From Protonemura montana (Eukaryota; Arthropoda; Insecta; Plecoptera; Nemouridae), in the NCBI GenBank assembly GCA_947568835.1, contig OX387602.1, forward strand, positions 24,355,021 to 24,419,020: a DNA stretch of 64,000 nt, given 5' to 3'. Both the position numbers and the translations under genes were made by a program. Position 1 is the stretch's first letter. Every line of letters starts with the position of its first letter. Positions 164 to 30,077 of this stretch are shown piece by piece. The notes beneath the pieces are model-generated. The model was not told where the DNA came from. It worked only from the letters and a program-made list of their open reading frames with translations, and searched no databases.

Positions 164-3100
164 ATGGGGACCTTGAGGCAGACAACGCAAGTGCCAGCGG
201 CAGCACTCTGGAGACGCCTCCAGCCGAGGAAGAGGAAGAAGAGGGTCCCATGCAGTTCCCAGCACCTCCTGGAAAGGGTTGGTACTACAACTATGAAGAA
301 GACCACTACAGCCTCTGCGAAGACTCAGAGGACGATCTTTCAGAAGAAGAAGTACGCGTTCTAAGGTAAGAATTGCAAAGTGAAGAAGTTGGAAATTTAC
401 TTGTTTAATTTAATCTCGAGTATAATATATTTGTTCACATTACAGCAATAGAGCACCAATCAAGGAGGCCCCCACATCACCTAAAGTTGCCACTGAAGAT
501 GAAACAGACGACGAGGAATTTGAAGAAGTTGATGAGGGAGATGATGGCGAAGATGAAGAAGAAGAGGAAGAGGAAGAGATGATAGTCAGAGATGTAGCAG
601 CAAACGTTGTTGCTGTTAAGGTGCCTGTAGTGGTGGTCAAGGAAAATCTAGCGGTGCCCCCCGAAATCCCACGACTCCCTGAGGCGTACAGCGCGGTGGC
701 GGGAGGTTCTCGTGGAGGGCTGGCTCCAATGCGGCCCGAAGAGACGACAGGAACGCTAAAGCTCGGCTGGCAGTGTCCAGTGTGCACACTTGTCAATGCC
801 CCCACTCGACCAGGGTGCGCTGCATGCACCACCGAGCGGCCGGAAAATTACGTCGTACCCACAGCATACCGGGCCAACAAAGAAGAGGGGCTGCGGCTGG
901 AGAGGGAACAACAGCTTGAAGAGGTACGTCCCCCAAGGAAATTTTTAAAGATGGACTTGTATGTTAGTAACTTCGAGCATAAGAATATTTGTATTTGTAT
1001 TTGTATTTTTTTTTTTTTTTCCCAGGACAGTTACATAGTAAATGTATAGGTTACGTCAGAGAGGATAGTTATGTACATAAGTTATAAAAATAATCTATAA
1101 ATAATCTTATAATCTTATTTATAGATAATAGATTATAGATTTATAGATTTATAGATTTATAGATTTATAGACATTCGTTCAATTAGTTCAATTAGTTCAA
1201 TTATAAAGGTAAAAGGTAGCTCGATAAATATTCCAAGACCTGGCAGATTACATTACTAAAGCACATCTTAATTGCTTTTCTTATGTTTGTAATGCTGAAT
1301 ATATTTGGGAATATTTGGGGAGAAAATTACCAGGCTAGAAAATGTCCAATTTCAAACAGATTTACTTTGATAACACAGAAACACAAATACCGCAAATGAA
1401 GCCGGCACCAAATACCGCTGCAGAAATAGGAAACTCTTTTCATTATAAAGGATAAATCCAATTTACAATATAATAAATAAAAACAATAAATATAGCAAAA
1501 ATCAATATAATACCTTTGTAATTCAAGGCAAGTGCAGAGGAGAAGAGACAGGAAGAGGCTGCTCAGCACCAGCACTACCTCCAGCTGGTCAACCTAGACA
1601 AGACTGACTTGGTGCCAAACATGGAGGCGTTTGACTGCTCTGTCTGCCTTGCCTCATACGGCCCCAACGACGGCACGGTTCTGCGAGAGTGTCTGCACAC
1701 GTTCTGCCGGTGAATGCAAGGGATCCCCAGAAGTTGTCAAGACTGTACCACTTTTATGATGTTCACACTAGTTTTTATTGAGTACTTTTTTGAATAAGCA
1801 CTAAAAATGTGTAGTTCTTTGAACCAATATGTTGCAACTTATAAACAGGCGCTTATCTAGGGCTAAAGCTCGACTAAATCCCACTAATTGCAGCCAAAAA
1901 ATTGAACTGTAACAAACTCTAGGCTTTTAGGAACAGTTGCAGTCTCAATGGATTTGAATTTGACAAACTCACACATTCATAGTGCAAAAAAACCCTTGTT
2001 TGCAAAATTGCCCCTGCCTTCATAACAGATGAGAGCTATTTTATGGCAAAGTTTCAGGAGGCTGGAGGCAATGTCTAAAGAGTTTATCTTCCAGGCCATG
2101 TCTGGTGAATACAGTGCTGTTCAACCAGGAGGCAGAGGTGAAGTGTCCTTACCGAGATGCAAACTACGCTTGCGACAGTGTACTGCAAGAGAGAGAAATT
2201 AAGGCTGTAAGTTGAACCCCATTCATGATTTTAAAATGAACCTGGAACCCCTTGTTGAGATTCTAGTTTGAATAGTCCTGGATCTTGGATCATTTCCAAA
2301 ATACTCTAGCCTGCAACATACCTAAATTAAGTAAAGATTAGAAATTCTTGTTGTCTAATTTTACCAGTCATAGGTGACTTAATTTTTATTTGGTTTCAGT
2401 TGGTACCCAAACAAGTTTACGAACAGCACTTGGCTAAATCAGTTGCTCAAGCTGAGAATAAAATTGGCAATGCGTTTCACTGCAAAACCCCTGACTGCCG
2501 AGGGTGGTGCATTTTCGAGGACAACCTTAATGAGTTCCACTGCCCAGTGTGCGTGAAAACAAACTGTCTTACGTGCCAGGTAAACATACGAGTTTACTCA
2601 GTTCTTATTTTGCACTAGAAAACTTATCAGTTGCAATAACCAGAATCTGGATTATAACTCTTTCAGGGCTCTGAAAATATTTTAAAATGTGATACTAATT
2701 ATTGAAAATTATATTGCCTAGTTCAGTTATTTTTATAATCTTTTGTGGAGTCGTCTGATTTGTGGGTCTGAATTGATGGGCAATGTAGTGCTTACACACC
2801 ACTGATAACTTTATGTTTTTAATTGACAGGCGATTCACATAGGAATAAATTGCAAACAATACCAAGAGAAAATGAAACAAGAATCTGAGACAAATATTGA
2901 GGCAAAGAGAACAAAAGATATGCTGGAGGTGAGAGAACTACAATAAGACATCATAATTTACAGGCAGGATTACATTTCGTCCTCTTTTTGTGATCGTAGA
3001 CAAAATAGCCTTTTTATTAACAAATTCATTGCGTGCTGGCATGGATTGGACTGATTTTTGGTGTGCATGGATCTTACAGGGTCTTCTCTTTTAGTAGCTA

Positions 3101-6629: not shown

Positions 6630-6855
6630 GCATCTCGAACAGCAGGATTCCTCCACAAATCCATGCAGTCGAATGTTTGATAAGCAAGGCTAATGAAGTT
6701 GCTGTACTAACTTGCATTCCTCCAACCTCTCTCCCGAACATAACTGATCATGTGTATGATGGTCACCCATCCAATACCTGACCCAGCGTAGTGTTGCTTA
6801 ACGTCGGTGATCGCACGAGAACCGGTGTTTCCAGCACCAGGGCTCGTAAGCCCAG
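6630..6855 (-). mobile_element. 5S-rRNA-derived SINE, copy 1 (with 5S head)
   Basis: On the minus strand, 6852-6760 matches 5S rRNA, including the internal promoter: ACCGGTTCTCGTGCGATCAC, GTTAAGCAACACTACGC (A-box region) and TATTGGATGGGTGACCATC (C-box region). The body that follows (TGTTCGGGAGAGAGGTTGG, TGGATTTGTGGAGGAATCC) is shared with the copies at 7.6-7.9 kb and 29.6-29.9 kb. This architecture is that of SINE3-type elements transcribed by RNA polymerase III from a type 1 promoter. Confidence 0.85.
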
Positions 6856-8858: not shown

Positions 8859-9105
8859 ATGAAATCTTATTTAAATTGCAAACGCTTGCAATGCGCGGGG
8901 TATTTTATTATTAACAGCACTATAACCGTCTCAAAAATTGATGCCCAAACGCGGACTCGAACCCCGATCTCCACGTTTCGCTTTTGTCCAGATAGCTCAA
9001 TGATTCAGAGCAACACCCGCGAAAGGTGGAGATCGGGGTTCGAGTCCGCGTTTGGGCATCAATTTGTGAGACGGTTATAGTGTTGTTAATAATAAAATTT
9101 GCTGC
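8859..9105. repeat. Fold-back of tRNA-derived SINE (family A, copy a)
   Basis: Two copies of the same SINE lie head to head. The right arm (+) has a tRNA-like A box (ATAGCTCAATGATTCAGAGC) and B box (GGGGTTCGAGTCC), then GTTTGGGCATCAATT and GAGACGGTTATAGTG. The left arm is its reverse complement, from about 8920 to 8973. The centre near 8975-9010 keeps a single D-arm. Related copies are at 34.3 and 55.6 kb, sharing the outer GCAATGCGCGGGGTATTTTA module with this one. Confidence 0.88.
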
Positions 9106-9386: not shown

Positions 9387-10549
9387 ATAGCCCATCGTGT
9401 TCAGGGGTCCAAACATCCCCTTAGACAACAGTATGGGCGAATCTTAAAAATCAAGAATTTTTTCAATATTTTTAAAGTGGAAATTCAAGTGACGGATTTT
9501 GACCCGTAAGGGTTGTCAACAGAGGTAGAATTTCAAGGGGAGTTGAATGCACACCCCTGTTTGAACCTGCGATGGAAACTTAAATTACTAAGTTTTTCTT
9601 GATTTCCTATTTTGAATTCCCCGAGTTCCTCGACTCCCAACGCCTGGGCTGTGGACACATGTCTCCCTCCTCAAATGATCAAGTGAAGGGATGGGGAGAG
9701 ATGATCTAAAGTATAATTTTTAAGATTTTTTTTTTTACTAAGTCCAAAAACGAATGCATATATACGACTTCCACTGACGAGTTGTCATCAGGGCAGCGTG
9801 GCTCAATGGTAACGTGCTAGCTTCGAAGCTGGGATAGGAATAATCGTTAAGGGCAGTGTCGGACTGGCCAGGGCAGCCAGGCGGCAAATGCCACCGGGAC
9901 CTCCAGCCGGCGGGGGCCCCTGGGGCCCCCATTTGCAATAAGAAAGTTTTTTAAAACATTTTTTAATTTATAGTCATTTGATTATGTTGTCTTAATGTTG
10001 CAAATAGCCAGTGCTTGTTATCATTGAGCCACGCTGCCCTGATGGCAACAGGTTGGTGGAAATCGTATATAAACACTTGATTTTAGACTTGGTAAAAAAA
10101 AATCATGAAAGTTATATTTCGGATCATCTCTCCCCATCCCTTCACTTGATCCATGTTCCAGGTGAAGGGCTTTGAGAGACAAAAATAGGAGGTGCCGGGA
10201 AGCGAACTGCGGACCCCACGCGTTGGAACTCACGACCATCCCACTGCGATACGAGGACACATATGCTGTGTCGGATTTGTTATCAACATGCAAGTCAATA
10301 ACAAGATGTAAATAAATCACTTCTAGCAGTAATATTTATGTGTGAATCCTGATGGGTAGGCCACTCATCGTACACGTGTGCACTGACGTCGTGTTTACAG
10401 TCCAGGCGTTGGGTGTGCAGTCACTTCAATTTCCACTCAAAAAATATTGAAAAATCAATGGACGTTTCTTACGTTTATTCTTGATTTTTGAAGATTCACC
10501 CATACTGTGGTCTATAGGGTAGTTTGCACCCCCGAACACGATGGGCTAT
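9387..10549. repeat. 1.2-kb mosaic inverted repeat
   Basis: Arms pair in nested blocks: ATAGCCCATCGTGTTC (9387) with GAACACGATGGGCTAT (to 10549); the CAGTATGGG...AATATT block; GTGGAAATTCAAGTGAC with GTCACTTCAATTTCCAC; CCAACGCCTGG with CCAGGCGTTGG; AAGTGAAGGGATGGGGAGAG with CTCTCCCCATCCCTTCACTT; and GGGCAGCGTGGCTCAATG with CATTGAGCCACGCTGCCC. Each arm carries unpaired insertions (about 9500-9635 and 10155-10400). The right-arm insertion contains a tRNA-like sequence on the minus strand (10190-10262). Confidence 0.85.
9854..10020 (+). mobile_element. hAT-like element end inside the fold-back loop
   Basis: CAGTGTCGGACTGGCCAGGG followed by GC-rich sequence ending in GGGGCCCC is the type of terminus seen on many animal hAT elements. 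It starts in the loop between the two arms of the 9387-10549 inverted repeat. No matching right terminus is visible before the right arm begins. Confidence 0.45.
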
Positions 10550-10959
10550 TATGGGCACGATTCCGTTATTTTATAGCTTCAAGGTTGGCAGCTAAGCAAG
10601 GTGGGTACACAGGTTACCGACCGATGGCCGTGATTTATCGACATTTCAATTGATCAAGTACATTTGATATCCAACAGATTGCGTTTGCGATCACTTTGTG
10701 CTTTAACTCGACTGCTGGTTCGGTGATACTTGTTTGGTATGGTTGACCAGGAGACCTGCTATCGAACAACGGGGTTCGACTGGCGTTCCTCCAGTCGGAC
10801 TTCAAGGCTTGCATTTTCGCGTTAGATCGTGGCAACTGGTGAAAGCCCATTTTTTGGAGTGGCCGCGTGCTTCAGCACTGCTTGGTGTTGGGGTCCGGTC
10901 CGGCATTTACACATTGTGTAGAAGCGAAGCCTTCTTTCTCTATTAGCGCATGGTTGATA

Positions 10960-11045
10960 TCGTGGTGGTGGTGGTGATGGTGATGTTGGTATTGTTGGTG
11001 ATATGTATGTTAATGGTGATGTTGTTATTGTTATTAGTCACCGTT
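10960..11045. repeat. GTG/GTGATG microsatellite
   Basis: Imperfect tandem of GTG, GTGATG and TTGTTATTG triplet-type units. Confidence 0.7.
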
Positions 11046-11379
11046 ACCTTTGTTATATTGTTTGTAGTGATGTTTGTTAATTACTGTATATATGTCGCAT
11101 GATTATATCATTTAATTATAATTCCGAATAACTCGTGTATATATTTATTTTTCCCCCTTTTCCTACTTCTTCTTACATATTTTCTTTATATAATTTTCTT
11201 ACTTAAGTCACATTTTCTTTTAGTAACAGTAGCCATATTTTCATATTGCGTTCCCCACCATGGCCAATATTGTTTCGTCGATGCTTTCACCCCCTGGTAG
11301 CCAGGCTAGGAACTAAAACATAATTTGAAATTTTTTTTCTTGCCCTGGAGGATGATTGGTGTGATTAAAAAAAGATGTA

Positions 11380-11468
11380 GGCAACGAGGATCGAACGCAG
11401 GACGTTTGAAACCTGATGCACCCACATAAACCGTTCGACCACAAGACCAGCTCTCCATGTTGCGTTTT
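11380..11468 (-). repeat. tRNA-like unit G
   Basis: The minus strand reads AGCTGGTCTTGTGGTCGAAC (D-arm/A-box-like), then about 35 bases on, CTGCGTTCGATCCTCG (B-box-like). Size and spacing fit a type II (Leu/Ser-like) tRNA shape, but a 7-bp acceptor stem does not close. It is in the same orientation as the array at 12352-13400. Confidence 0.6.
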
Positions 11469-11730
11469 TTTGGGATACAAAAACTGTTCAACTGTGACAA
11501 CTCCGTCAAAAAATCCGAAAAACCTCAAACACCATGATTTTCAATAAAAGTTATTTCGATGAAACATTATAAACACCAGCTTCAGTATTGCCCATCATCG
11601 TACTAAATAAAAAATACGTTCGAAGTCTTGTGCAGTTTACTCATCCTGGATCATTCACTATGTATGAACAGACAGTCGTATAACATCACTTGGACACCCA
11701 GGACGACGGTGCCATATTCTGGCGCTGGCC

Positions 11731-12020
11731 CTTAGGTCTAGCATCAAGCGTATAGGAACGATTATAATGAGTGTTACGCATCATCAGCGCCACCTGTTGA
11801 CAGGATTTTGTACTACACTTTGGACAAATATGTTGATATTTTCCTGCTGTATTTTCATAGTTATTTTTCGATTAGTTAATGAATTAGATTAAAAATCAGA
11901 CTTGGCAAATGTCTTAAATTATTACAAGTCCAGAGTATAGTACAAAATCCTGCCAACAGGTGGCGCTGATGATGCTTAACACTAATTATAATCGTTCCTA
12001 TACGCTTGATGCTAGACGTA
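11731..12020. repeat. Fold-back with about 85-bp arms
   Basis: The left arm (about 11736-11815) and right arm (about 11938-12018) are near-perfect reverse complements sharing TCTAGCATCAAGCGTATAGG, AACGATTATAAT, CATCATCAGCGCCACCTGTT and AGGATTTTGTACTA. The loop is about 120 bp and AT-rich. The right arm ends about 10 bp before the hairpin cluster at 12030. No coding sequence. Confidence 0.9.
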
Positions 12021-12029
12021 GGAGCCCGG

Positions 12030-12298
12030 GTGCGTGAGCGACTGGCGCTCCGCGCCAGTCGCTCACGCACGCTGCTGGGCCCTGGCGCGGAGCGCCAGGG
12101 CCCAGCAGCGTGCCGGTGCGCCCGTGCACCTAAGCGCGCTTCGCGCGCTTAGGTGCACGGGCGCACCGGCGGGCGTCCAAGCGCGCTCCGCGCGCTTGGA
12201 CGCCCGCCTGTGCGCACTCACGCGCGCGAAGCGCGCGTGAACGCTACAAAATTGCGGAGCGCGACTGGCGCGAAGCGCCAGTCGCGCTCCGCAATTTT
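12030..12298. repeat. Cluster of six abutting perfect hairpins with 3-base loops
   Basis: Stems and loops: H1 12030-12048/12052-12070, loop TCC, 19 bp. H2 12067-12088/12092-12113, loop GGA, 22 bp. H3 12112-12139/12143-12170, loop TTC, 28 bp. H4 12168-12186/12190-12208, loop TCC, 19 bp. H5 12218-12227/12231-12240, loop GAA, 10 bp. H6 12248-12271/12275-12298, loop GAA, 24 bp. Every stem is mismatch-free. Every tip is GCGC-loop-GCGC, and read on the appropriate strand every core is GCGCGRAGCGC. Neighbours share terminal bases (H1/H2, H2/H3, H3/H4). H1 and H6 share the arm GCGACTGGCGC, H2 shares CTGGCGC, and H3/H4 share AAGCGCGC. Confidence 0.97.
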
Positions 12299-12351
12299 CG
12301 TGGTATCTACACTGTGCGCTCAAAAAAAAAAATAAGATGTGGCACAGCAGT

Positions 12352-13400
12352 AGTTGTGCTGACGGGATTCGAACCCGGGACCCCGGCAATCTCATGATTA
12401 TTCACAAGAGGTAGTGCCTTGTACCGCACGACCACGCGGACATCTAGTTCGGTGGCATTTTTATGGTATATAATTCCTTCAGACTGCAGCTACCATATGT
12501 GAACACTTTGAATGTCGTATTCCAATAGAAAAAATATCCTGTCGGTGAGCGGGATCGAACCAGGTCACAATGTAGCTTGATGGTTCCGATGTAACGACAT
12601 GTCCATAGTGCAACGCAGACGGTCGCCCCTGCTGTGGTAAACTGAATATATTTTAATTTCAAACCTGATGTCCCTGTTTACCGGGTTGACTATAGGCACA
12701 TTTCACTGACGGCACTCAATGTATACTACGGTACAACAAAAAGCGGAGCGGACAGGACTCGAACGCGGTCACATCCGAATTGCTCTTCCGAGGAGCGACT
12801 TTTCCTACCGGCCATCGAGACGAGTTGATTATCGATGGAACAAAGAGATACATGAATAGCACAAGACGACTAGAGTGTAATAATGAAAAGAGTCAAACAT
12901 ACTTTGAGAGTTTCGATGGATGAACGAGCGATGCAATATTTGCAGCATTCAATGAATGCCAGTCGCCACTTGATGAAGAACAAAATGAGGATCGGGCAGG
13001 ATTCCAACTCGAGACATTTAAGAAATGTCCCCATGAAGAAGTGGCCGTACCTCACGGCCACTGAGACGTGTTGCTATACCAGAGGAAATAACATATACTT
13101 GAATAGCAGCTGGCGGGGATCACGGTACACCATCGAGAAGAGATGTTAGTTTTCTCTGTAAAGATTAATACATATCCAGTAGTTTTACACACATGTGACA
13201 TACCTGCTTCGAACCAGCGACCCTCTGAACCCTGGCGCTGAGCACGAGAGCGATCTTCACTCGCCGCCGAATGGACGCTACGAAGATCGGCGAGAGTTGC
13301 ATGACAATAGGTACTTTAACAATCTTGGTAGGTGATTGATTCTTAGTTAAAAATAGTGCACCAAGCGGGATACGAACCCGGCCCCGTTTATCCTCCGTTC
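12352..13400 (-). repeat. Tandem array of diverged tRNA-like units (A-F)
   Basis: Six B-box-like sites on the minus strand lie near 12370, 12556, 12760, 13004, 13210 and 13374 (spacings 186, 204, 244, 206 and 164 bp). Unit A reads GTCCGCGTGGTCGTGCGGTA ... GGGTTCGAATCCC. Unit B has GGTTCGATCCCGC. Unit C has GTCTCGATGGCCGGTAGG ... GCGTTCGAGTCC. Unit D has GTCTCAGTGGCCGTGAGGTA ... GAGTTGGAATCC. Unit E has TGGTTCGAAGC. Unit F keeps only GGGTTCGTATCCC. Spacers C and D share AxAxATACxTGAATAGCA-type sequence, which supports tandem duplication. Acceptor stems do not close, so these are not functional tRNAs. A lone plus-strand B box (GGGTTCGAATCC) lies at 13460. Confidence 0.75.
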
Positions 13401-13674
13401 CACTTTCCTGTACCTTTTGCAGGAAGTAAATAAAACAAGATATAAAGAAATCACATCTATGGGTTCGAATCCAGCCTACTGCGCGGTTTTGGAAGCGGCT
13501 AGGGACTTTTTTATTTTTTTTGCGGACAGGAAATGGGCTAAGCGTTTTTTGGAACAAAAAACCTTGTAAGCAAATTTTTGTTTTTATTGTTAGTCATGGC
13601 AGTACATTTCACTATCACAAGCAGCAACAAAGTTGCATTTAAACACACTACTTTCGACTAAGTTTTTTGAGTGC

Positions 13675-13857
13675 CAAGTGAAGAACAACTAATTTTCCCA
13701 AAGTTTTGCAACTTATGACTGTTTTTTTATCAAGTGTGAAAGCAGTCCTGACACTTCTCTGATAACAAAAAGAACCACAAAAATATAAACAATTACTTTT
13801 CCTTCTGTAATTACCCAACAATTACTGTGTTGGGAAAATTAGTTGTTCTTTACTTAA
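13675..13857. repeat. Inverted repeat with about 25-bp arms
   Basis: AAGTGAAGAACAACTAATTT on the left pairs with AAATTAGTTGTTCTTTACTT on the right, and the arms continue into TTCCCAA/TTGGGAA. The interior is about 130 bp, AT-rich and noncoding. Size fits a small MITE-like or snap-back element. Confidence 0.8.
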
Positions 13858-15418
13858 CATTAAAAAACCCAGTTGAAAAGAGTTTTCTCGAAACCAGTGA
13901 GAAAGTTCTTATCCGATTCCAAGACACGATTTAACACCAACAACCATCTCAAGTTCAAAGGAGAACACAAAACGGATTTCAGACCACCCTGGAAGCTATT
14001 GGGTCCAACAAAAAAATCAAAATAAGTTTTACATTCCAGTTGACCGGTGCTTTTGATTGGAGGTAGCTAAAGAACAGCTGACAGTTTCCCAAGATATCTG
14101 TCCCAGTCATTGGGACTTCTCATCCTGCAGTTTTTTAATTCCTAACAATTCTTGTATTGTTATAACTATGCCGATGCCAAGAATCAATCACTGTGATAAA
14201 ATTAAAAAAACTTGCTTTTCTCCCCGAGGGATGGAAAGTGGACAAAGCAACTGGTCTTGCGTTGACGTAGATCAATGTTTCCCCAGTCAAGTTCTCTTTC
14301 CGTTGGGTGCAGCGAGTCGACTTTCACGGCCAAGAGTGGAGGGAACGCCAACCTACAAAATGAGGGAAGCATTAAGGCACGTCAGGATAGCCAACCGTGC
14401 CAGACTGGCAAGCTAGCAGGTTGCAACTGTGGTTCTTCAATCCGTTATGCATCCAACAATATGTTGCTGGTGCTAGAAGCCATCCTTGGGCTAGGTTAGC
14501 TGCAAGCAAAGAATCAATACCTAAACATAAACTGCATTGAGTAAATCCCAGGCCTTATGACCAAACATAAAAAAATTGTTTATTTGGCAGACTTATAGAA
14601 AAATGGACATGAATAAAAGCTACTGGGGAGACTAATGGTAAGACTAATTGGGAAAGGGATTGGAATTTTAGAAATAAGTTAAGAGTGGAACGAGTTTAAG
14701 TGATTGGAAATAGGTGAACAGAATTTTTATAGATTTAGGAAGTTGTTAAAAGACATATTCTAAGATCTGAAATGCTACTATGTTAAGAAATTACCGAACA
14801 AAAAACAGTTTTAAATTAGTATAAACATGGATTGGCGAAGTGGTTCACAGTCGTGGGTAGATGGGGTTGTGTGGAAGGGTATTGCTATGTTTTAATTAAC
14901 TTGCGGTCCTGAAAAGGCTAAAAAGAACCTAAAAAGTTGACGTTGAATCGGCGTTGTTAAGATAATACAGAGAATGAAAATAGTTCGAGTTGTTTAAAAT
15001 GAATAAAAATACAAAGTTAATGATCAGAAGATGATCAGAAGATGACGATGATCAGAGAGAGATTGGGTCTGAGTATACAGATGGCGATTACTAGATGAAG
15101 TCTTCTCGAGGTGATGTTTGCATGGATGTTTGCTTATTTTTAACATTTTTGAGCTCTCCCTTACTTATGAACTCATTCTCCAAGGTTTTCCAAGTCAGGT
15201 TTCACGTCAGCTGTTCTGTGTTCTGGTGCTGCAAAAATTATTGAAACATTTTTCGTATCGGGTTCAGTGCCCAAAAAACAACAGGGTAACCACCAACCAC
15301 AGTAGAGAAACATTGATGGAAAAAAAATTATTGTATAAAATAATTTTTAAATTGGGCAGAATATTAACAGTTTATCTAAATGGAGCTGCAATCTGAGGCT
15401 TGTCAGCCAGTAACAATA
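13858..15418. other. Intergenic, no gene seen
   Basis: Open frames up to 119 codons occur (14057-14416), but their translations are low in protein-like character and have no splice-supported extension. No repeats shared with the rest of the window were noticed. Confidence 0.45.
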
Positions 15419-28263: not shown

Positions 28264-30077
28264 ATGTCTTCATCGATTGTAATAACTACAGTGACAGTGT
28301 TCTGTGTCGTTCTTGCTGGTGCGACGGACTCGTGGCGTCCAGTCACCCACCAGAAGACTGTCGTCCCGACGCCGGAAGAGGCGCAGGCCCGCAGCGCTGG
28401 CGACGCCGACAACAAGTGGTGGCTTCCGGTGTCCGAGCTGCGCAGTCTCCGCAGCATCTACGTCGACTGCATCTCGAAGAACGACGACTTCGGCGTCGCT
28501 TGCATGAAGGGCAAGGCGCTGGTGCTTCTCGATCGCGCCATGGGCAGAGAAAACATCGTGCTGGGCGAAGGCGTCACTCTGGAACGCAACAACGAGGCCG
28601 CAGAGAAGCTGATTACGTCCGAGGAGCAACTGGATGCTAGTCTGCCCAGGGAATTGAGCCAGCGCGAGAAGAGACTGGATGAGCTGCTGTTCGAACACTT
28701 CGTCGCCTTCCTTCAATCGCACACCGTCAAGTTGAATCTGTCCAGCCGCGCGCTACAGAACACCTTCTCTGAAGGTAAGTCGACTTCCTTGAAGTTTCTG
28801 TATGGGAAGTCACAGGTGCGTATCGCCCTCTTCACAGTTGCGGTGCTTTTCCGATGGTCAAACACCTAATCGCGTTGAAGAATGAGCTGAGCAGAGATAA
28901 GCCCGAGGAACACTTGAGAGTTTCTGTGCTGAGCTCATGGTTGTTATATTGACATTGGCTTAAATATGCGACCAAGTACAGTTATTCCAAATTTGACATG
29001 CATAGAATCTGGGCAAGCATTAGATCGACTACCCATTATACAAATGCTACTAAGAATGAAACTACCTCCGCGCTGTTGATTTTCCTGCTTCTTACATTCC
29101 GTTGCTTGTGTTTCAGCGAGGAAGAAGGGATACAAGAAGCAACAGCCGTACATCCTGTTCGCCATGCTGACAACGGGCAAGCTCATCCTCGCGTACTCGC
29201 TCAAGATGATCGCGTTGATAGCTGGAAAGGCGCTGGTCATCGCCAAGATCGCGCTGGTGCTGGCATCAGTTGTCGGGCTGAAAAAGCTGTTTCACCACGA
29301 GCCTGAGCACAGCACACACGAGGTGGGTGCCGGTTTTCAGAAATATGCTGAATACCTCAGTCAGCACCAACTGTGGACACCCCTGGGCTAGATGTTTACG
29401 GGCCAGAGATGATAGCGCGTTTCACAAAGAGATTCTATGGACGCGCATGGATTCTAGGATGGCCCTTAGGGAACGTAGCAAGTTGTGGGCGGCATAAGTA
29501 AGGGGTCGAGCAAAAATTTGCCCAACAGGGTGAAACGAGCTAACGTAAGATAGATTGGTGGCGGTGAGGCTTAAGACACCAAATTACTTTACACATGACT
29601 AGTTCTGTTTGGGAGAGAGGTTGGAGGGATGACACTTAGTACAGCAACTTCATTCGCCTTGCTTATCAACCTCTCGGCAGTATGGATTTGTGGAGGAACC
29701 ATCCTTCGAAATGGACGTTAAGCCGGTGGCCCCATTGGTGCTCCTCGACAGGAGTAGGCTACGTATCGACACCGGATTTCCCCTGCTCCCTTCTAGGCTA
29801 AGTTAGCTCATTCACCGACGCCATTAGACCAGTGCCACAGAGCCCGTTGTGTGCGTCACTAAAAACAATAATCAATCAAACCAAATTACTTGACGCTGCT
29901 GATCAGGGGTGTAGAGGGGTCGTCTGGTCCATGTCCTGGCTAAATGCAGACTTGTCTTCGCAGGTGATCGCACACGAGCCGTACCACCATTCCTACCACG
30001 GTCGCAGCTTCGGCGGAAACCAAGAGGAGGCTGCCCACAAACTCGCCTTCAACATGCAGATCCCGCGGCCTGCATAA
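28264..30077 (+). CDS. Osiris family (DUF1676) secreted/endosomal protein, 3 exons
   Basis: Exons 28264-28774, 29117-29322 and 29964-30077 join in frame to 276 residues, the usual Osiris length. A signal peptide (MSSSIVITTVTVFCVVLAGA) is followed by the paired-cysteine region (DCISKNDDFGVACMKGKAL, then LGEGVTL). The DUF1676 junction is SEG|ARKKGYKK, next comes one long hydrophobic helix (about residues 182-222), then a His/Tyr-rich tail and AHKLAFNMQIP, a variant of the family's AQxLAY motif. Osiris proteins are insect-specific, usually clustered (the Tpl dosage-sensitive locus of Drosophila) and act in endosomes of cuticle-secreting epithelia, for example in cuticular nanopore formation. The paralogue number cannot be assigned by eye. 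The coding exons are GC3-rich compared with ZFP64. Intron 2 contains a SINE. Confidence 0.94.
29600..29881 (+). mobile_element. 5S-SINE, copy 3, in Osiris intron 2
   Basis: TTTGGGAGAGAGGTTGGAGG, CAGCAACTTCATTCGCCTTG and TGGATTTGTGGAGGAACC match copy 1. TGGTGCTCCTCGACAGGAGT and the tail CCATTAGACCAGTGCCAC...AATCAATCAA match copy 2 in reverse. The 5S head is absent. The copy lies about 280 bases after the donor and 80 bases before the acceptor. Confidence 0.85.

Follow-up and report, generated by a model that had tools for sequence, protein, structure and literature searches.

A cluster of six perfect DNA hairpins in a putative non-autonomous hAT-type transposon of Protonemura montana: arms that change together and loops that invert

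Inverted-repeat scans of the window (the whole stretch of DNA analysed, 64,000 nucleotides), together with DNA folding, confirmed what an earlier note made from the sequence alone had described between positions 12030 and 12298, namely six mismatch-free hairpins with loops of 3 nt, overlapping at three junctions and sharing one tip. The hairpins (H1 to H6) and the arms of a larger imperfect inverted repeat beside them, which served as an internal control, are located as follows.

12030-12070, no strand assigned: H1, stem 19 bp, loop TCC at 12049-12051
12067-12113, no strand assigned: H2, stem 22 bp, loop GGA at 12089-12091
12112-12170, no strand assigned: H3, stem 28 bp, loop TTC at 12140-12142
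12168-12208, no strand assigned: H4, stem 19 bp, loop TCC at 12187-12189
12218-12240, no strand assigned: H5, stem 10 bp, loop GAA at 12228-12230
12248-12298, no strand assigned: H6, stem 24 bp, loop GAA at 12272-12274
11727..11825, no strand assigned: left arm (99 nt) of the larger imperfect repeat, whose arms are 92% complementary (internal control)
11928..12026, no strand assigned: right arm of the same repeat, which has a spacer of 102 nt (internal control)

The overlaps amount to 4 bases at H1/H2, 2 bases at H2/H3 and 3 bases at H3/H4, and GCGC-GRA-GCGC forms the tip of all six hairpins when read independently of strand, three on each. The modules said to be shared were also found as stated, GCGACTGGCGC being common to H1 and H6 and AAGCGCGC to H3 and H4. 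When all 64 kb were scanned for mismatch-free hairpins (stem of at least 13, loop of 0-7), five of the six cluster hairpins came up and only two others, both AT-rich and of 13 bp; H5 was missing because its stem lies below the cut. The fold of positions 12026-12302 reached −177.6 kcal/mol, compared with a shuffle mean of −89.4 (sd 4.0, n = 200; z = −22.05), and none of the 200 shuffles folded as well, the parameters used assigning equal energy to GAA, GGA, TTC and TCC loops. The hairpin cluster is far beyond chance expectation.

The cluster is not one of a kind, as it is present in many copies inside a putative hAT-type element that the earlier note had missed. It sits within a dispersed module whose copies have ∼3.5-3.9 kb in common, and the following parts were recognized in the window.

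9854..9867, plus strand: left hAT-type terminal inverted repeat, CAGTGTCGGACTGG, exact match
9931..13459, no strand assigned: dispersed module carrying the hairpins, its start taken from the comparison with copy L052, its end being ...AAATCACATCTA(G)
13460..14437, no strand assigned: a different repeat that adjoins the end of the module here and in the C1:23781018 copy (L011/L090)

Copy L052, which sets the module start, is without the terminal repeat, and the window copy is without ∼350 bp at 12732/12735 that are present in the three other copies aligned there. The 14-base end CAGTGTCGGACTGG has 270 exact copies in the genome compared with 2 for its reversed control. Both ends (CAGTGTCGGACTGG ... 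CCAGTCCGACACTG), in some cases with one or two changes, were found in six cluster-bearing copies, and each of these six is flanked by an 8-bp target duplication, exact in four (GCCCTAGC, CAAGAGAG, GTATCTTG and GATTTGCA) and matching at 7/8 positions in two (GTAGTTAC/GTAGTCAC and ATTGTCGC/ATGGTCGC). The copy at C16:12485262 is a whole 6.3 kb unit running from CAGTGTCGGACTGG to CCAGTCCGACACTG with GCCCTAGC flanking both sides, and includes a 440-bp stretch missing from its relatives. The right end was absent from the stretches read in seven copies, which are the window copy and those at C1:17881699, C11:7216993, C1:19653378, C1:26373259, C1:18713834 and C1:24805241, while the copies at C1:17020861 and C1:16499743 are without both outer ends, stop at ATCTA(G) and showed no target duplication at their ends. 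The hAT dimerisation domain (PF05699) has 77 matches in the genome, none of them linked to these ends, and two stretches around such matches held no such end.

On the strength of its ends and target duplications, the element can be classed as a putative non-autonomous hAT-type transposon. It resembles the non-autonomous members of the hAT superfamily in having short inverted ends of the CAGTG type and target duplications of 8 bp; particular to it within this comparison are the internal repetition of the left end, the internal hairpin array and the finding of no coding capacity, with no open frame longer than 135 aa in the element copy scanned. As the module ends in CTAG, a Helitron was considered, and was rejected because the ends read showed no A/T insertion pattern and the outer unit has 8-bp duplications. 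Two further end pairs, in neither of which the cluster is known, had one exact duplication (CAGATAAC) and, at C3:20492190, none. The former, in which the same hAT ends enclose 1.9 kb at C4:5203590-5205511, is probably a shorter relative that lacks the hairpin module. The 14-base end also recurs at 34-bp spacing, five times at C5:921508-921657 and twice at C5:1421856-1421903.

Other features were seen in and near the window. By eye, tRNA B-box-like motifs run through the module on the minus strand, often ∼200 bp apart (10197, 11390, 12363, 12551, 12757, 13208 and 13369), and an Rfam search up to E 5 gave no tRNA match at them. Outside the module, 5S rRNA-like matches over the Rfam cut-off lie at 6730-6850 (minus strand) of the window and at 150-257 of L046 and 2905-3025 of L047, these being the only matches over cut-off in the search of the latter two; 5S-derived SINE-like repeats seem common in the genome. 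A tRNA-Ser (cga) at 8985-9060 (plus strand) lies within an inverted duplication (8902-9098), and a frame at 579-1049 (plus strand) matches a RanBP zinc finger. Another frame, at 28264-28869 (plus strand), matches DUF1676 (PF07898), which we take to be the insect Osiris family, and to that extent marks the window as insect DNA; a protein search with it found nothing.

In the 258 Mb assembly, at least 36 copies of the cluster were found on eight contigs (C1, C2, C4, C5, C11, C13, C15 and C16), a lower bound as the best 40 of 396 first candidates were scored. H5 is absent in eight of the 36 copies and cut in one. Given this number of copies on eight contigs, and flanks that differ among the copies compared, a local assembly artefact does not account for the cluster. 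Searching with its left neighbour, the best 40 again being scored, recovered 32 of the 36 copies and eight others, of which two have no such hairpin remaining (L091 and L094), four carry a damaged cluster (L093, L095, L096 and L069) and two a different hairpin cassette (L092 and L097). The right-neighbour search led to more copies with a second cassette in or near the cluster position. This second cassette comprises two oppositely oriented hairpins ∼600 bp apart; H6 resembles its hairpin, and the H6-like hairpins within it indicate that the exchange of modules proposed in the earlier note took place to some extent. An assembly-wide search for the shared tip, which the same note had suggested, found GCGCGRAGCGC 905 times compared with 183 for the reversed control, and GCGCGYAGCGC 126 times compared with 205.

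Several loci showed local peculiarities. Tips of the GCGCGRAGCGC type alternate in strand with a period of ∼817 bp at C1:11452316-11455545, which probably represents the second hairpin cassette in tandem array. In L031, the copy at C1:16009546, ∼40 extra bases of GCGCGCTC-type repeats adjoin H5 as a local expansion. In the damaged clusters L069, L102 and L096 the loss seems to go from tip to tip, and in L069 the left arm of H1 is fused to the right arm of H2, as if the tips were deletion end points. The exact 21-base tip pattern had three matches in bacterial metagenome-assembled genomes, regarded as unrelated hairpins, and matched 0 viral contigs. No published description of such a cassette was found in the open-access literature and, as far as these searches go, this part of a hAT-type element had not been filed before.

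The arms were compared over 119 stem pairs in 35 of the 36 copies, L031 being left out for its insertion, and 98.5% of the stem cells pair. Two-sided change was detected at 25 of the 119 pairs, compared with 9.6 (sd 2.0) in shuffles and with 1-4 pairs when the partners were slid, and in 84 cells compared with 14.0 in shuffles; neither count was reached in any of 500 shuffles. The internal control, an inverted repeat with a 102-nt spacer, had two-sided change at one of 77 mostly paired positions (one of 92 counted). One-sided changes comprised 20 G-T cells, 20 A-C cells and 39 others, and 10 of the 28 compensated types were of the transversion kind. Among 12 close copy pairs (1351 pair comparisons), eight two-sided matched changes stood against 38 one-sided ones, so that correction is not instant, since one-sided changes still outnumber matched ones between close copies. 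These data support active homogenisation of the arms. The earlier note had attributed the perfect arms to recent formation or to active conversion; only the latter part is supported, as the arms vary between copies yet match within them.

Loop orientation was followed on a tree of the 36 copies built from the flanking DNA minus the cluster, 14 of whose 33 inner branches are well supported. The minimum number of inversions on the best tree was nine in H2, six in H3 and seven in H4, and zero in H1, H5 and H6, with ranges over 200 of 1000 bootstrap trees of 8-11, 4-8 and 5-8 for H2, H3 and H4 and again zero for the other three. This corresponds to ∼6.4 inversions per hairpin per substitution per site in H2-H4, and at that mean rate zero inversions in one hairpin has a probability of 0.00065 (H1 and H6 each). 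The H1 loop has one orientation in 35 of the 36 copies and reads TCA in the remaining one; the H5 loop showed no inversion among the 27 copies with an intact H5; the H6 loop showed none in the 36, and reads TTC (inverted) in the damaged outside copy L069. The arrangement of three loops up and three down described earlier is correct for the window, but H2-H4 flip from one copy to another, so that it is no constant design. No inversion was seen among 33 matches of the second-cassette hairpins, whose perfect tip is ∼7 bp, a number of these matches being double-counted across overlapping loci.

One inversion was present in six of the 12 close copy pairs, which are not all firmly supported sisters, notably L037/L060 and L019/L020, and in H2 of L009/L013 and of L037/L060 the loop is the sole difference at the hairpin. 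Loop orientation is weakly tied to the tree, label shuffles needing no more than the observed changes in 48/300 cases for H2, 8/300 for H3 and 1/300 for H4, and such a weak tie would be expected from frequent flipping and from exchange between copies alike. Copies L024 and L025 have an H6 tract in common, contrary to the tree; because of this tract and the weak tie, some of the inversions counted may instead stem from exchange between copies. Across these orientations, the loop is GRA or the complementary triplet in 204 of 207 cases, and the middle loop base switched between A and G 2, 5, 0, 5, 2 and 1 times in H1-H6, respectively.

The tips, in turn, stay nearly constant. In the 84 columns of the seven pairs next to the loops, four changes were counted compared with 72 expected at the near-flank rate, and two singletons compared with 28.5, in copies that had first been found by cluster similarity, damaged copies, some with tip changes, standing outside both the tree and this count. 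The count was still four in the 32 copies also found via the left neighbour. No change occurred at d1-5 (60 columns), the rate jumps at d8, and from d8 onward (159 columns) there were 189 changes compared with 137 expected from the flank. Columns just outside the hairpins had 129 changes compared with 43, three times the flank rate, so that the cluster is not uniform in rate. The right arm of H6 toggles repeatedly at d8-d9. The tip sequence CTGGCGC is common to H1, H2 and H6, and AGCGCGC to H3 and H4. Symmetric arm-to-arm correction does not predict such conservation, as half of the new tip mutations should then become fixed on both sides.

We consider it probable, at about 0.7, that the cassette is part of a non-autonomous hAT-type transposon and that its short-loop palindromes fold, polymerase template switching both keeping the arms matched and flipping the loops. 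Arm matching and loop inversion match the template-switching signature in published accounts (PMC8604942; PMC8794818), and from this we infer template switching. The palindromes would fold while the DNA is copied or repaired, and the polymerase would switch template; a switch inside a hairpin would copy one arm onto the other and restore perfect pairing, and a switch to the opposite strand and back would turn the loop round. Folding would be easy, a GRA loop closed by GCGC being known as an exceptionally stable DNA mini-hairpin, and the hairpins would stay perfect without any need to be useful to the host. Neighbouring hairpins with shared tips may also re-copy one another and so keep the last seven pairs near-constant, which is a guess and the weakest step of the scheme. 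Template switching leaves two observations unexplained, the conservation of the tips and the failure of the long-armed H1 (19 bp) and H6 (24 bp) to flip in the 36 copies. A more far-reaching version, which we hold to be doubtful, is that the cassette is a self-repairing DNA structure in which abutting hairpins that share a near-invariant 17-base tip serve as each other's templates; this would restore the tip, the arms and the type of loop and let the loop orientation of the middle hairpins drift freely, the tip perhaps being recognised as a single-strand DNA signal of use to the element. If true, this would constitute a class of selfish palindromes that owe their upkeep to copying errors and are not kept in spite of them.

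The constancy of the tips could also reflect selection, with the element needing its hairpins as a DNA structure for protein binding or priming and the constant GCGC-GRA-GCGC tip with its seven pairs being recognised. The deficit of tip changes and singletons, the empty d1-5 columns, the near-uniform GRA loops and the excess of GCGCGRAGCGC over its control, with no such excess of GCGCGYAGCGC, all agree with this, although plain descent can explain the motif excess, and neither loop inversion nor compensated transversions require a function. As end branches make up 0.88 of the 1.14 tree length, dispersed copies without selection should moreover have decayed there, and other copies have the second cassette at the same place; we therefore regard selection on the hairpins as unlikely. 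Selection acting on RNA, by which transcripts of the cluster would be kept as hairpin RNAs (a small-RNA source or structural RNA), is consistent with the strong two-sided change and with weak microRNA-like scores over the hairpins, but every Rfam score was far under the curated cut-off, nothing within the module in the window exceeding it. RNA pairing would favour G-T, yet G-T and A-C cells occur in equal numbers, which disfavours it as the keeper, and inversion would turn an RNA loop GAA into UUC. On this balance of G-T and A-C and on the loop inversions, RNA structure was rejected as the keeper of the arms, and we give it very little chance.

Exchange between copies, by gene conversion or recombination, might instead have propagated a small set of old variants of loops and arms, new inversions being few. 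The H6 tract of L024/L025, the toggling in the H6 right arm and the weak tie of orientation to the tree speak for such exchange. As an account of the whole it is nevertheless highly improbable, since the hairpins of L009/L013 and L037/L060 differ by the loop alone, the neighbouring 102-nt-spacer repeat, equally exposed, is almost without two-sided change, and both loop orientations in three hairpins would still require an origin. Palindromes of this sort are difficult to sequence, which might point to an assembly or library artefact, if not to a chance run of inverted repeats; with 36 copies on eight contigs, matched changes specific to single copies and the fold at z −22, which refutes chance, the likelihood of either is negligible.

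REP/BIME palindromes are bacterial and are mobilised by a Y1 transposase. By the description in PMC2817692, the cluster resembles them in its runs of small hairpins, alternating orientation and many spread copies. Closer is template switching in yeast, for which Abraham and Hazkani-Covo (2021; PMC8604942) report arm homogenisation with spacer inversion, the inversions occurring only with arms >9 bp, and list two cases with 3-nt ttc/gaa spacers; loop inversions also occur in RNA genes, and a template-switch model for RNA hairpins was put forward in 2022 (PMC8794818). Identical arms, inverted loops, short spacers and inversions with longer arms are common to the cluster and to these cases, whereas abutting hairpins, dozens of copies of one mobile element and at least 22 inversions on one tree set the cluster apart, as do the near-constant tips, which that model alone leaves unexplained. 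Actively maintained perfect palindromes, for which maintenance without evident function was proposed, are described in nematomorph mitochondrial genes (PMC6649704); these are likewise mismatch-free and lineage-variable with arms kept identical, but reach 284 bp and are mitochondrial and protein-coding, unlike the short, nuclear, transposon-borne hairpins described here. The reading of the tips as GNA-type mini-hairpins, put forward in the earlier note, fits the G-N-A loop closed by G-C pairs in all but three loops; GCGAAGC has a Tm of 78 °C (PMC4686876), as a short oligonucleotide, whereas here the motif tips genomic stems of 10-28 bp and N is A or G.

We thus regard the cluster as a known mutational process at unusual density. 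Evidence for template switching at hairpins usually comes from isolated events dispersed across genomes, whereas this cassette, repeated at 36 or more places and accompanied by a long-spacer repeat as internal control, yields rates: about six loop inversions per substitution per site for each of H2-H4, and none for their neighbours H1, H5 and H6. Rates from one repeated cassette make it possible to test what lets one hairpin flip but not its neighbour, and whether replication can maintain perfect palindromes as a by-product. The element also carries a warning that matched stem changes alone are no proof of RNA structure, and would provide a natural archive of the slips made when DNA is copied at hairpins.
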